Below are positions 2,335 through 62,591 of a stretch of 64,000 bases of DNA, one piece after another. The DNA is from Prevotella sp. GTDB taxonomy: Bacteria; Bacteroidota; Bacteroidia; Bacteroidales; Bacteroidaceae. A program made the position numbers and the translations under genes. Numbering within the stretch: the first letter of the stretch is position 1; each line of letters opens with the position of its first letter. The notes under the pieces are model-generated. The model worked only from the letters and a program-made list of their open reading frames with translations, had not been told where the DNA came from and did not search any database. The stretch spans positions 1-64,000 of the forward strand of contig JALEKD010000005.1 in the NCBI GenBank assembly GCA_022769285.1, read 5' to 3'.

Positions 2335-2342
2335 TACCTTTG
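2335..2342 (+). promoter_or_regulatory. Bacteroidales -7 box (TACCTTTG), candidate pyrK promoter
   Basis: Matches TAnnTTTG; lies at the 5' end of the solo repeat copy; no clear -33 TTG. Confidence 0.45.
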
Positions 2343-2394
2343 CATAAGATAGGCTGCGCCTCGGCCATCCGAGCAAGCTCGTGGCGCTCGGTTC
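2335..2394 (+). repeat. diverged solo copy of the 64-bp repeat found at 58246-58524
   Basis: TACCTTTGCATAAGATAGGCTGCGCCTCGGCCATCCGAGCAAGCTCGTGGCGCTCGG matches the tandem-unit consensus at 51 of 57 positions by hand alignment. Confidence 0.85.
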
Positions 2395-2567
2395 GCCGTT
2401 ATCTTGACAGCGGATAGGTTTGGTGGCAGCCATTAGCACAGTGAGAATGGTGCCCGTTGCGTGCGCGTTATATATATAATAAGGTATAAGCGGCAGGCTG
2501 ATGCTGTTGGCTGTCGGCACGACTACTGAGGCATGTCCTTGTATCGTATTAATAGTAAAGGAGAGTT

Positions 2568-55423: not shown

Positions 55424-57253
55424 ATGAGAAAACTTGAACTGTTAGCTCCTGCCAAGAACTTAGAATGTGGCATCGCCGCCATCGACTGCGGGGCTGATGC
55501 CATATATATAGGGGCAGCGCGCTTCGGGGCCCGTGCGGCTGCCGGCAACTCGGTAGAGGACATAGCCGCTCTGTGTCGCTATGCCCATGTTTTTGGTGTC
55601 CGTGTGTACGTGACGCTTAACACCATTATCTACGACAGCGAGCTGGCCGACACCTTGGCACTGGCCGAATGTCTGCGCCAGGCTGGGGTCGATGCCATTC
55701 TTGTACAGGACATGGGGCTTGTGGGGCGAGTGTCCTTGCCACTGCACGCGTCGACCCAGTGCGACACCCGGACGGCCGACAAGGCGCTGTGGCTGCGCTC
55801 TTTGGGCTTCAGTAGGGTAGTATTGGCCCGCGAGCTGTCGGCCAACGAGATACAGGCCATACACCAGGCAGCCCCCGACCTCGAACTCGAAGTGTTTGTC
55901 CATGGTGCGCTCTGTGTGAGCTATTCCGGTGTATGCTATGCATCGCAGTACTGCTTTGGGCGCAGTGCCAACCGGGGTGAGTGTGCTCAGTTCTGCCGCC
56001 TCAAGTTCGACCTCATTGATGCCGATGGTCGCGAGATAGAGCATCAGCGTCACCTGCTCTCGCTTAGGGACCTCTGTCAGATAGATGCCCTTGAGCAGTT
56101 GGCTGATGCTGGCGCCTGCTCTTTTAAAATCGAAGGCCGCCTGAAAGATGCTGACTACGTCAAGAACGTAGTGGCTGCCTATTCGCGCCGCCTGGATCAG
56201 TTGGTGGCCAGCAGGCCCCACGACTACTGCCGGACTTCGCGCGGGCGGGTGGAGTACCACTTCGAGCCCAATCTTCATAAGACTTTCAACCGTGGCTATA
56301 CCCACTACTTCCTGAATGGGCGTCAGCCCGACATTGCCAGCTTTGACACGCCCAAGGCCATGGGCGAGTACGTGGGCCGGGTCAAGGAGTTGCGCGGCAA
56401 CTCATTCAGCGTGGCCGGTGTAGCAGACTTCGCCAATGGCGATGGCCTCTGCTTCATCAATGCCGACCATGAACTGGAGGGCTTTCGGGTGAACCGTGCC
56501 GAGGGCAACCGCCTTTATCCTCAGAAGATGCCGCCGATGCTCCGTCCGGGCATGGCCCTGTATCGTAACAGTGATGTGGCCTTTAGTAAGGTGCTGGCCG
56601 GCAGGGTAGCCGAGCGCAAGGTGCCGGTCGACATGACCCTCTCGCTGTCGCCCACGGGTTTTGTCTTGCAGGCGCAGCAGGCGCGTGCTGAGGTGGCGTT
56701 CGACCACCAGGAGGCCCGCACCGGTCAGCACGACAATATCGTGCGTCAGCTGTCCAAGTTGGGCAATACCCCTTACACCTTGGGCCATCTTACCATAGCC
56801 GATGGGGCCGACGGGCTGTTTATCCCATCCAGCCTGCTGTCCGACTTGCGTCGCATGCTCGTCGAGCAGCTCCAGCAGACCGTCCCCGATGCCTCTGGCG
56901 AGGCTCCGGCAGCCTGTCCCCAGCCTGGCGATGCCCCCCTGTCGCATGGTTGGCAACGCGAGTACCTGCAGTACCCCTACCTGTACAATATAGCTAACCA
57001 GTCGGCGCGTGCCTTCTATCAGCGGCGTGGCCTCTCACCCTTGGCCCCAGCTTACGAGCTCTCGCCCACGTCCCGCCCACTCATTATGCAGTGCCGTCAC
57101 TGTCTGCGCTACGCCTTAGGCTACTGTGTACGCCGTGGAGGACGCAAGCCCCAGTGGCGCGAGCCCCTTTATCTGCGTCTGGGCGATGGCCGACGCTTTG
57201 AGTTGAAGTTCCAGTGTGACGAATGTCAAATGAATATTTATGCCGAAGAATAG
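55424..57253 (+). CDS. peptidase U32 family protein (RlhA/YdcP-like with C-terminal extension)
   Basis: MRKLELLAPAKNLECGIAAIDCGADAIYIG, VHGALCVSYSGVCYASQYCFGRSANRGECAQFCR, SFKIEGRLKDADYV. Confidence 0.92.
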   Translation: MRKLELLAPAKNLECGIAAIDCGADAIYIGAARFGARAAAGNSVEDIAALCRYAHVFGVRVYVTLNTIIYDSELADTLALAECLRQAGVDAILVQDMGLVGRVSLPLHASTQCDTRTADKALWLRSLGFSRVVLARELSANEIQAIHQAAPDLELEVFVHGALCVSYSGVCYASQYCFGRSANRGECAQFCRLKFDLIDADGREIEHQRHLLSLRDLCQIDALEQLADAGACSFKIEGRLKDADYVKNVVAAYSRRLDQLVASRPHDYCRTSRGRVEYHFEPNLHKTFNRGYTHYFLNGRQPDIASFDTPKAMGEYVGRVKELRGNSFSVAGVADFANGDGLCFINADHELEGFRVNRAEGNRLYPQKMPPMLRPGMALYRNSDVAFSKVLAGRVAERKVPVDMTLSLSPTGFVLQAQQARAEVAFDHQEARTGQHDNIVRQLSKLGNTPYTLGHLTIADGADGLFIPSSLLSDLRRMLVEQLQQTVPDASGEAPAACPQPGDAPLSHGWQREYLQYPYLYNIANQSARAFYQRRGLSPLAPAYELSPTSRPLIMQCRHCLRYALGYCVRRGGRKPQWREPLYLRLGDGRRFELKFQCDECQMNIYAEE

Positions 57254-58244
57254 ATTATCCTGGGCGCGGATAGCCTTAGCCGCCCTGTTGGTGCTGTTGG
57301 TAAGTTCGTGTTACCACCGGCCCCATCGGTACTCCAGTCTGTTGTTGCAGCGCAGTACTCCGCAGACCGATACGCTGTCGTTCTACGCCCTGCATCACTA
57401 TACAGTCAACTACAACTTCTTAGTAAAGACCGACTCGCTGTCGCTCATGGTCCAGCAGCCCGAGGAGATGTTGGGCTGCTTGCCTACCGATACCTTTACG
57501 GTACACAAGGGCGACCGCCTTGTGGTGGCCGACTTCCGCATGCTGTCTCAGGATCCCACCGACTCCGTCTGGGTACAGGTGGCTACGGCTGCGCGCCGCT
57601 TCGGATGGATTCACGAGAGTGCGCTGCTGCCATCGGTGGTTCCCGATGACCCTATTTCTGAGTTTATCTCCGTCTTCTCGGACACCCACCTGCTCATTTT
57701 CCTTATCGTCATTTGCATTATCTCGGCCGCTTACCTCATCCGTAAGCTGCGGCGTATGGATGCGCCGATAGTACACTTCCGCGACATCCACTCGTTTTAC
57801 CCCACGCTGCTCACGCTGCTCGTGGCCTCGGCGGCCACGCTCTATGCCAGCATACAGACCTTCGCCCCCGATGTGTGGCGTTACTTCTACTACAACCCCA
57901 CGCTTAACCCACTCTCCGTGCCCATTATCTTAGCCGTGTTCCTTACCTTAGTGTGGCTGATGCTTATCGTAGGTGTGGCCGTGTTAGACGATGTGAGGGC
58001 CCAGTTGCCTGTGGGCGAGGCCATCGTGTACCTGTCAGGGCTGGCAGCCGTTTGCGCGGTCGACTATATCGTGTTTAGCATTACTTCGCTTTACTTTGTG
58101 GGTTATCTGCTCCTCGTTTTCTACTTCTGGTACGCCATCCGCCAGTACCTGCGCCATGGCCGCATCGTCTGTGTGTGTGGCCAGTGTGGTGCACCGCTTC
58201 AGCACAAGGGCCGCTGTCCTCACTGCGGGGCGATCAACGACTGA
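57240..58244 (+). CDS. membrane protein with SH3-like periplasmic segment and C-terminal zinc ribbon
   Basis: Lipobox-like LVSSCY; KGDRLVVADF...WVQVATAARRFGWIHESALLP; multiple TMs; CGQCGAPLQHKGRCPHCG. Confidence 0.75.
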   Translation: MPKNRLSWARIALAALLVLLVSSCYHRPHRYSSLLLQRSTPQTDTLSFYALHHYTVNYNFLVKTDSLSLMVQQPEEMLGCLPTDTFTVHKGDRLVVADFRMLSQDPTDSVWVQVATAARRFGWIHESALLPSVVPDDPISEFISVFSDTHLLIFLIVICIISAAYLIRKLRRMDAPIVHFRDIHSFYPTLLTLLVASAATLYASIQTFAPDVWRYFYYNPTLNPLSVPIILAVFLTLVWLMLIVGVAVLDDVRAQLPVGEAIVYLSGLAAVCAVDYIVFSITSLYFVGYLLLVFYFWYAIRQYLRHGRIVCVCGQCGAPLQHKGRCPHCGAIND

Positions 58245-58245
58245 G

Positions 58246-58524
58246 GGCGCTCGGCTTGTACTATTTTTGCATAAAATAGGCTGCGCCTCGGCCATTAGAG
58301 CAAGCTCATGGCGCTCGGCTTGCACTATTTTTGCATAAAATAGGCTGCGCTTCGGCCATTAGAGCAAGCTCATGGCGCTCGGCTTGCACTATTTTTGCAT
58401 AAAATAGGCTGCGCCTCGGCCATTAGAGCAAGCTCATGGCGCTCGGCTTGCACTATTTTTGCATAAAATAGGCTGCGCCTCGGCCATTAGAGCAAGCTCA
58501 TGGCGCTCGGCTTGCACTATTTTT
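58246..58524 (+). repeat. 64-bp tandem repeat, 4 full copies plus partial fifth
   Basis: Unit GGCGCTCGGCTTGCACTATTTTTGCATAAAATAGGCTGCGCCTCGGCCATTAGAGCAAGCTCAT at 58246, 58310, 58374, 58438, then partial from 58502; only two point differences among full copies. Confidence 0.97.
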
Positions 58525-58603
58525 CCTCATAAATGAGGACTAAGGGTACGGATAATTATATGTACCTTTGCAGCTGTAACAAACCATACAATTTTATAGA
58601 TAG

Positions 58604-61051
58604 ATGAATAGTCAAGGAGCGGCGGCTTTAGTGGCGCTGATGATAGCGTCGGCCGGACATGTTATAGCTGATAACAGGATAACCCATATAGATAATCCAT
58701 CGGTCAACGACACCTCGCGGGTGGTTGACATCGACGAGGTAGTTATTGTGTCTCAACCCAAGGAGAGTTTCCGTCTCCGTAAGCAGCCTGTAAGCAGTTC
58801 CATGTTTTCTGGTGGTGAACTGCAGCGCATGGGCCTCCGCGCCTTGCGCGATTTGTCGCTCTACGTTCCCTCGTTCTCGATGCCTGCTTATGGGTCGCGT
58901 TACACCAGCTCGATATACATACGTGGCATAGGCTCACGCATCAGCAGTCCGGCCGTGGGCATTTACTCCGACGGTCTGCCGCTGATGAGCAAGAGTGCCT
59001 ACAACCATCACAACTACGAGTTGGGCCGTGTCGATGTGCTCCGGGGCCCCCAGGGTACCCTCTATGGCATCAATACCGAGGGCGGACTGATACGTACCTA
59101 CAGCCGCGACCCCCTTACTTGTCAGGGCACCCATCTGCGCATTGGGGCCAGCAACCACTTCGGACGCAATGTAGAGGTGGCCCACTATGCCCGCCCTAAT
59201 GACAAGTTGGCTTGGTCGCTCGCGGGTTTTTATAACGGTCAGAACGGTTACCTCACTAACGCCACCACCGGCCAGAGAGCCGACCAACTCAACGAGGCGG
59301 GCGGCAAACTGCACTTAGTGGGCTTGCCCACCGCCACCCTCAAGCTCGACTATATCCTCGACTATCAGTACACCCGCCAGAACGCCTTCCCCTACGGGGT
59401 GTGGAACCCGCAGACTGACGAGACGGCCTTGCCCTCGGCTAACCGCCAGGGCAACTACCGCCGTAACATGCTCCACACCGGCCTGATACTTACCCAGCGG
59501 TGGGGCGGTGTCACCTTCAGTTCTACCACCAGCTACCAGTATCTCAAGGACTACATGGCGATGGACAATGACTATCTGCCGGCCGATTTCCTGCAACTCG
59601 AGGAGCGCCAGCATCAGAATACGGTTACCCACGAGATGGTTTTTAAGGGCGCTGTGCCCCTTGGCACCGGACGCGACAGTCGTTCGTGGCACTGGACAGC
59701 CGGCTCGTTTACCACCTATCAGTGGAACAAGACCGAGGCACCGGTAACCTTTTATGCCGACATGAACACCTTGGTGGCCGGACAGATACAGACGGCCATG
59801 TACCAGGCTATGGTACAGTCCATGGCAGCCCGCTTTGTGGCATCGGGGATGAGTGAGGCTCAGGCCAAGGCACGGGCTGAGCAACTTATAGCCAGCCACG
59901 GCGGGGTGAGCATGACGGTCCAGCTGGGCACCATCCCCGGCCAGTTCCACCTGCCCACGTTCAACCAGGGCATCTTCCACGAGTCGGCCATAGACCTTAC
60001 CCCTAGGCTCACGGCCACCCTCGGACTGCGCTATGATTACTCGTGGGTCAAGTTGGGCTACGACACCCAGGCCCAGATGACCTGTGACGCCCTCGTCATG
60101 GGCGCGGCGGCCACAGCCAAGCTTACCTCGCACCTGGTTCACTCGTGCCACAATGGCTACAGTCAACTGCTACCCAAGGCAGGGCTGAGTTACCGGCTGG
60201 GCAGTCATGGCTCCAATGTCTATGCAGTGCTCAGCAAGGGCTATAGGGCTGGCGGCTTCAATTTTCAGATGTTCTCCGACATTCTTCAGACCGAACTGCG
60301 CAACAATTCCAGTCAGCGCGGCGATTACGACATACCCCATACCGACGATGACTATCAGCGCATAGCGCAGACCATATCGTACGCCCCCGAAACCACATGG
60401 AACTACGAGGTGGGAGCCCACCTTAACCTATTGGGCAACAGCCTACAGATGGATATAGCGGGTTATCTTATGCAGATACACAATCAGCAGTTGTCTGTGA
60501 TGGCTGGCAACTACGGTTTTGGCCGTATGATGGTCAATGCCGGCCGTAGCCGCAGTCTGGGTGTCGAACTCTCGCTGCGTGGGAGCCATCTGGACAATCA
60601 TCTTACCTGGGCCCTGAACTACGGCTATACCAACTCCGAGTTTCGCGACTATACCGATGCTGTTACCGAGGACGGTGCCACACGTACGGTGAGCTACCGT
60701 CACCATCGGGTGCCGTACATACCGCTGCATACACTGGCCGCTAATGTCGACTATCGTATCGCCCTGCGTGCAGGCAGCCTCCAGGCCTTAGTGTTAGGGG
60801 CCAACCTCCAGGCCCAGGGACGCACCTACTGGGACGAGACCAATGTGTACAGCCAGAAAGCCTATGCCCTGTTGGGTGCCCATGCCGATGTGTGCTGGCC
60901 CAAGGTCACCGTGAGCCTGTGGAGCCGCAATATGACCAGTGCCCATTACAATAGTTTCGCTATAGAGAGTGCCGCCAGCGGCCAGTCGCTTGTTTTCGCC
61001 CAGCAGGGCAGCCCATTCCAGTTGGGCGTCGACGTGCGGTTCGACTTCTGA
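58604..61051 (+). CDS. TonB-dependent outer-membrane receptor
   Basis: Plug domain LRALRDLSLYVPSFSMPAYGSRYTSSIYIRGIGSR, VDVLRGPQGTLYG; barrel ending in FQLGVDVRFDF; TACCTTTG box at 58562. Confidence 0.94.
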   Translation: MNSQGAAALVALMIASAGHVIADNRITHIDNPSVNDTSRVVDIDEVVIVSQPKESFRLRKQPVSSSMFSGGELQRMGLRALRDLSLYVPSFSMPAYGSRYTSSIYIRGIGSRISSPAVGIYSDGLPLMSKSAYNHHNYELGRVDVLRGPQGTLYGINTEGGLIRTYSRDPLTCQGTHLRIGASNHFGRNVEVAHYARPNDKLAWSLAGFYNGQNGYLTNATTGQRADQLNEAGGKLHLVGLPTATLKLDYILDYQYTRQNAFPYGVWNPQTDETALPSANRQGNYRRNMLHTGLILTQRWGGVTFSSTTSYQYLKDYMAMDNDYLPADFLQLEERQHQNTVTHEMVFKGAVPLGTGRDSRSWHWTAGSFTTYQWNKTEAPVTFYADMNTLVAGQIQTAMYQAMVQSMAARFVASGMSEAQAKARAEQLIASHGGVSMTVQLGTIPGQFHLPTFNQGIFHESAIDLTPRLTATLGLRYDYSWVKLGYDTQAQMTCDALVMGAAATAKLTSHLVHSCHNGYSQLLPKAGLSYRLGSHGSNVYAVLSKGYRAGGFNFQMFSDILQTELRNNSSQRGDYDIPHTDDDYQRIAQTISYAPETTWNYEVGAHLNLLGNSLQMDIAGYLMQIHNQQLSVMAGNYGFGRMMVNAGRSRSLGVELSLRGSHLDNHLTWALNYGYTNSEFRDYTDAVTEDGATRTVSYRHHRVPYIPLHTLAANVDYRIALRAGSLQALVLGANLQAQGRTYWDETNVYSQKAYALLGAHADVCWPKVTVSLWSRNMTSAHYNSFAIESAASGQSLVFAQQGSPFQLGVDVRFDF

Positions 61052-62528: not shown

Positions 62529-62591
62529 CTGCGGACGTGCGTCCGAAACCTTAGAATATACATCCGAAACTTTAGAACGCACATTCTCTGT
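62529..62591. repeat. 21-bp periodic intergenic repeat, about three units
   Basis: CTGCGGACGTGCGTCCGAAAC / CTTAGAATATACATCCGAAAC / TTTAGAACGCACATTCTCTGT; encodes heptads (LRTCVRN LRIYIRN FRTHILC) in one frame. Confidence 0.6.

Follow-up and report, generated by a model that had tools for sequence, protein, structure and literature searches.

A tandem array of hairpin units in a Prevotella genome as a probable member of a genus-wide repeat family associated with promoter -7 boxes

A tandem array of 64-bp units in a 64,000-nucleotide stretch of Prevotella sp. DNA (the window) is probably a member of a genus-wide group of hairpin repeats that have promoter -7 boxes as their points of attachment, move or copy, and expand in tandem; we put the probability of this reading at roughly 0.6. 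The family is best read as a non-autonomous hairpin repeat of the REP/BOX/MITE kind with an affinity for -7 boxes, and the array itself has the appearance of repeat DNA that is spreading, not of a switch built for the gene beside it. No description of the family was found in the open-licence literature, and it is apparently undescribed.

The array begins one base after the stop codon of a membrane protein gene, and 79 bp separate its end from the start codon of the downstream gene, which encodes a TonB-dependent receptor (Table 1). TRF reports a period of 64, 4.4 copies, 98% matches, no indels and a score of 544, the runner-up tandem array within the window scoring 58, and the units are 98–100% identical to each other. 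The earlier note's account of four 64-bp units and a partial one directly after a stop codon is borne out by TRF and the sequence, and the motifs that it listed (TATTTTTG, TATTTTTGCATAAAATA and GCCAT-TA-GAGC-AA-GCTC-ATGGC) are found in every full unit. A Pfam search with the upstream protein gave no match. The window also holds a second, single-copy member of the family, with box TACCTTTG, arm AAGATAG and closing arm TTATCTT.

Table 1. Features of the array, its neighbours and the second family member (positions within the window)
Feature	Position	Strand	Basis or remarks
Tandem array	58246..58524	+	Four full 64-bp units and a 23-bp partial unit; TRF, sequence, unit-by-unit matches
Full units	58246-58309, 58310-58373, 58374-58437, 58438-58501	+	
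Partial unit	58502-58524	+	23 bp
First TAnnTTTG box	58262..58269	+	Sequence; lacks a correctly spaced -33 TTTG
Further TAnnTTTG boxes	58326-58333, 58390-58397, 58454-58461	+	
Last box	58518-58525	+	Reads TATTTTTC
Hairpin 1	58273..58331	+	AAAATAG...CTATTTT; fold in box-to-box register, covariation
Hairpins 2-4	58337-58395, 58401-58459, 58465-58523	+	
TonB receptor gene promoter	58529..58570	+	Comparison with orthologous intergenic regions
Receptor promoter motif	58529-58542	+	ATAAATGAGGACTA; relatives read ..GGATTG
Receptor promoter -7 box	58563-58570	+	TACCTTTG; 20-nt spacer from the motif
Upstream gene	57240..58244	+	334-aa membrane protein with C-terminal zinc ribbon
Downstream gene	58604..61051	+	815-aa TonB-dependent receptor; Pfam PF00593 and PF07715
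Second family member, single copy	2335..2404	+	End approximate

The natural register of the unit runs from box to box. Read in this way, the array consists of exactly four complete hairpins, the fourth closed by the partial copy, and each unit forms one long hairpin with outer arms AAAATAG...CTATTTT and the inner stem GCCAT-UA-GAGC-AA-GCUC-AUGGC. The GCCAT..ATGGC hairpin described earlier is present in each unit, but it is merely the inner part of this longer structure. A single 64-mer in the register originally used folds no better than shuffled sequences (z of -0.14); in the box-to-box register the window unit reaches only -0.9, and five other units reach -1.8 to -3.0. The same fold was obtained in every species tested. 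Its plan comprises outer arms AAnnTAG/CTAnnTT, an inner stem bulged by 2 nt on its 5′ side, and a 2-nt loop; the bulge is retained in most folded examples, which makes the hairpin strand-asymmetric. Units are 64 bp long here, 66–67 bp in most relatives and 73–77 bp in some, giving a non-coding unit of about 60–77 bp across the family. An Rfam search returned no match to the unit above the gathering score, only a tRNA gene beside one array.

The stems are maintained by compensatory changes. Among the outer-arm pairs of 122 distinct units, 717/732 cells are Watson-Crick, which gives the units terminal inverted repeats of the kind that define MITEs; the inner six pairs are Watson-Crick in 647/732 cells, a count biased toward paired cells in that the inner stem was located via its own pairing. 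Several pair types occur at most of the variable stem positions, although rows from one array or from related species are not independent and the number of events is overstated accordingly. A selected sense-strand RNA helix is expected to show G.U in excess of A.C. Among the non-Watson-Crick stem cells 7 are G.T and 18 are A.C, so that there is no wobble signature of a sense-strand RNA, and covariation extends to the base pair next to the 2-nt loop, a pair that RNA cannot form. Together with the asymmetric bulge, this pattern of substitution points, though not conclusively as against RNA, to a hairpin at the level of DNA. A 19-bp palindrome, CTATTTTTGCATAAAATAG, was also considered as the conserved object and rejected: in the 40 cases where the two boxes differ, to which the comparison is limited, the arm follows the right-hand box, as in a hairpin, in 22 and the left-hand box in 15. 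For most of the left-box cases, what stands as the right box is a chance match or degenerate (e.g. TTAATTTG); once these were discarded on visual inspection, about 19 cases favoured the right and 3 the left.

Promoters of Bacteroidetes have the form TTTG/TAnnTTTG, with transcription starting 4–5 nt past the -7 box (PMC6847099; see also PMC12632263). Of the 86 arrays whose upstream flank could be read, 25 have TTTG at a spacing of 19/20 nt ahead of the first box, against a mean of 0.6 for each alternative spacing (binomial p about 4e-25). Internal and last boxes, 148 in all and not independent since units inside the same array are almost identical, never have TTTG or TTG, the -33 element of sigma-ABfr promoters, 19–20 nt upstream. 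As the -33 TTTG occurs at first boxes only and transcription starts 4–5 nt downstream, the first boxes represent host promoters, which places the units at and past the start point, in the leader. Units are usually found immediately downstream of the -7 box of a host gene and in the orientation of that gene: a same-strand gene start lies at most 260 nt away at 73/89 sites, compared with 28/89 on the opposite side. Neighbouring genes of the arrays include ftsE, a NAD kinase gene, transporter and subtilase genes, a Cas9-like gene and tRNA genes, and the few neighbours that were checked share no functional theme. A degenerate unit lies about 220 bp upstream of the start of the Cas9-like gene (L048 897-3800, on contig C5 of the window's own genome).

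The unit was expected to recur elsewhere, and it does so widely. BLAST against its own genome gave about 75 matches distributed over about 40 sites, many of them at contig ends, with near-complete identity within arrays and 80–92% between sites. These are dispersed hairpin repeats in intergenic DNA, as in the REP/RAYT group. The core pattern TAYYTTTGYANAARRTA was found in 94/100 genomes of the genus, with 49 copies here and a range of 0–57, the richest genome having 57 and the low counts (0–5) being possibly chance matches to promoters; a reversed-pattern control gave 0–2 copies. With a stricter pattern, 101 genomes of the taxonomic family showed abundant copies solely in the same genus and in g39 (30 copies in G207), and isolated matches, 1–2 each, in four other genera. 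Contigs C26 and C6 of the window's own genome both terminate inside arrays of one and the same unit, and arrays therefore appear to break the assembly. The ends of G000 contigs C2, C6, C23, C26 and C29 fall in or beside arrays, so that in this draft assembly the array lengths at those ends are lower bounds. A plasmid search found no match to the unit. Eight unannotated 'phage' records do match it, and in the three inspected (MT836513, MT836089 and MT835658; L309-L311), which are unverified fecal 'phage' scaffolds, the unit precedes chromosomal-looking sequence with tmRNA-like sequence and LysR-type and hydrolase-type reading frames, as judged from sequence. These flanks indicate that the three records are probably bacterial DNA filed as phage, and carriage of the unit by phages was set aside.

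Differences between the sister species G017 and G107, which are about 92% identical across their best shared loci, reveal how the units come and go. The two differ in presence or copy number of units at 5/5 loci compared, a figure that is not a rate since the choice was confined to loci with units in one or both of the species. One unit is opposed to none at the ftsE locus and at L288 versus L289, and two to none at L292 versus L293. The copy-number variation predicted from the near identity of the window units is seen between these species at other loci, with three units versus two at tRNA-Arg (L294 versus L291) and two versus four in L146 versus L162; tandem units of variable copy number are the mark of a minisatellite, or VNTR. 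Homology on the left extends to the first box and restarts on the right at the last box. With regard to a target-site duplication of the kind made by MITEs, boxes stand on both sides of the units and a single box stands at empty orthologous sites, but the two end boxes often differ in sequence. Some empty sites retain a partial or whole arm, as a scar would. The presence/absence cases may reflect gain or loss alike. Paired changes from GGCAT/ATGCC to AACAT/ATGTT distinguish essentially all units of L146 and L162, which indicates that arrays evolve in concert.

At the window locus itself, the upstream zinc-ribbon membrane protein gene is present in 112/120 genomes of the genus. Relatives in which the receptor follows this gene have a short spacer without an array (e.g. 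L174, L183, L184 and L190), in which ATAAAT.AGGATTG, or a variant of it, is separated by about 20 nt from TAnnTTTG. In the window, the stop codon is followed by the array of about 280 bp and then by CCTCATAAATGAGGACTA-N20-TACCTTTG. The window array is thus specific to its lineage among the genomes compared, the best ortholog among which is 60–63% identical. Unlike most others, it lies upstream of a promoter rather than downstream, and its effect on the receptor is therefore probably small.

Several other readings of the array have to be weighed against a mobile hairpin repeat. Units could constitute a functional 5′ leader, each forming a 5′-terminal stem-loop that makes the mRNA more stable or tunes its translation or processing, with arrays supplying the stem-loop in graded copy number. 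We regard this as unlikely, though well worth considering: units closely follow a genuine -7 box in sense orientation, with the start expected 4–5 nt past it (PMC6847099) and hence with the outer arm at about +1; the fold is common to all species tested, its stems are kept by paired changes, and its strand-asymmetric bulge is compatible with a functional RNA. The lack of a G.U excess and the covariation of a loop-closing pair that is impossible in RNA argue against such a leader, as do the presence or absence of units at the same gene in sister species, their location ahead of tRNA genes, whose leaders get removed, and the position of the window array upstream of its gene's promoter. A passive minisatellite, immobile and duplicated in tandem by slippage, with an ancestral similarity between sites, would fit the contrast in identity within arrays and between sites as well as the changes of copy number at orthologous loci; it is nevertheless improbable, given a sequence common to about 40 sites per genome and the existence of empty orthologous sites.

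The two readings that tie the array to its immediate neighbours have little to commend them. The earlier note suggested that each unit might be a start site or a bound operator, and control of the TonB receptor by repeated operators or by alternative start sites in the array would accord with the box and dyad in each unit and the location upstream of the receptor gene. The in-unit boxes, including the first box of the window array, all lack the -33 element, relatives conserve the downstream receptor promoter without an array, dyad bases vary in pairs instead of being fixed, and the neighbours checked have no function in common; control of this kind is very unlikely. Least probable of all is a terminator or insulator of the upstream gene, also suggested earlier. 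The array adjoins the stop codon and folds as hairpins, but a terminator scan gave no terminator-like site, relatives lack the array at the same place, and arrays elsewhere, those of ftsE and tRNA genes among them, separate a promoter from the gene that it serves.

The repeat family works like REP, BOX and MIRU elements. REP elements are short, dispersed, imperfect hairpins with bulges that occupy intergenic DNA in tens to hundreds of copies per genome. The present family resembles them in being short, dispersed, bulged and intergenic, and differs in its head-to-tail arrays, in ends that are -7 boxes and in that no linked Y1 transposase was found. BOX of Streptococcus pneumoniae and Correia of Neisseria are likewise dispersed hairpin-formers near gene starts, able to alter expression; their sequence and modular plan are different, and they are not anchored on a -7 box. 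The MIRU minisatellites of mycobacteria are tandem intergenic units of similar size beside stop and start codons, with variable copy number, but their units are not hairpins ending in promoter boxes. Within the Bacteroidales, BrickBuilt of Porphyromonas gingivalis is an intergenic MITE that contains a tandem minisatellite and has proposed promoter activity (PMC4596501). Its 23-nt repeats are embedded in a MITE that has a leader, a tail and inverted ends like those of IS elements (PMC4596501), whereas the present family consists of 60–77-bp hairpin units, without leader or tail, spread genus-wide.

For a mobile hairpin repeat, a mechanism can be proposed in which each added unit, closed by its own copy of the -7 box, would supply a new box for the next. 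Spread would proceed through processing of single-stranded DNA hairpins by some enzyme, in the manner of REP elements, and arrays would grow locally by slippage or unequal recombination. The units would be mainly neutral or selfish, with secondary effects on host-gene leaders; effects on expression are plausible from their position. In a bolder and tentative form, the hairpin would target the housekeeping -7 element of the Bacteroidales, integrating from box to box through a single-strand recombination enzyme, recreating the box, stacking in tandem and rewriting core-gene leaders (ftsE, tRNA and others) throughout the genus. A resident RAYT/Y1 transposase is not supported as the driver: G017 has 24 pattern matches and yet no match to a Y1 (IS200/RAYT-type) transposase, and in G000 and G010 the Y1 genes have no nearby units, the nearest among the matches listed being more than 7 kb away.

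Other repeats were encountered in the window, in the rest of its genome and in a relative. A second class of the family has an AT-rich apical hairpin with a complete promoter, TTTTG-N19-TAnnTTTG, and amounts to a dispersed ready-made promoter (L037, L043 9647-9751, L059 3069-3182, L062 and L063 in the same genome; L064 in a relative). Composite intergenic repeats beside units of the TTCTTTT/TGTTTTTG type contain palindromes, for example GCGCCTACAGCGCG and GGGCGTTGCCCCAGG (L034 26-227, L037 3343-3480, L042, L053 and L054, all in the same genome). Another dispersed and partly tandem repeat resembles TCCGAAACTTTAGAATGTACA (window 62542-62584; L041 about 420-470; L063 about 2910-2960).

With dozens of copies in several species, the repeat family thus occupies promoter and leader regions of core genes in a large Bacteroidales genus; it varies from one sister species to another, and breaks in assemblies coincide with it. 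Whether the units affect expression or are mobile, caution is warranted over short-read copy numbers and leader annotations at array sites. If they alter expression, they would be a ready source of promoter-level variation; if they are mobile, anchoring on the -7 box would be an unusual choice of target.
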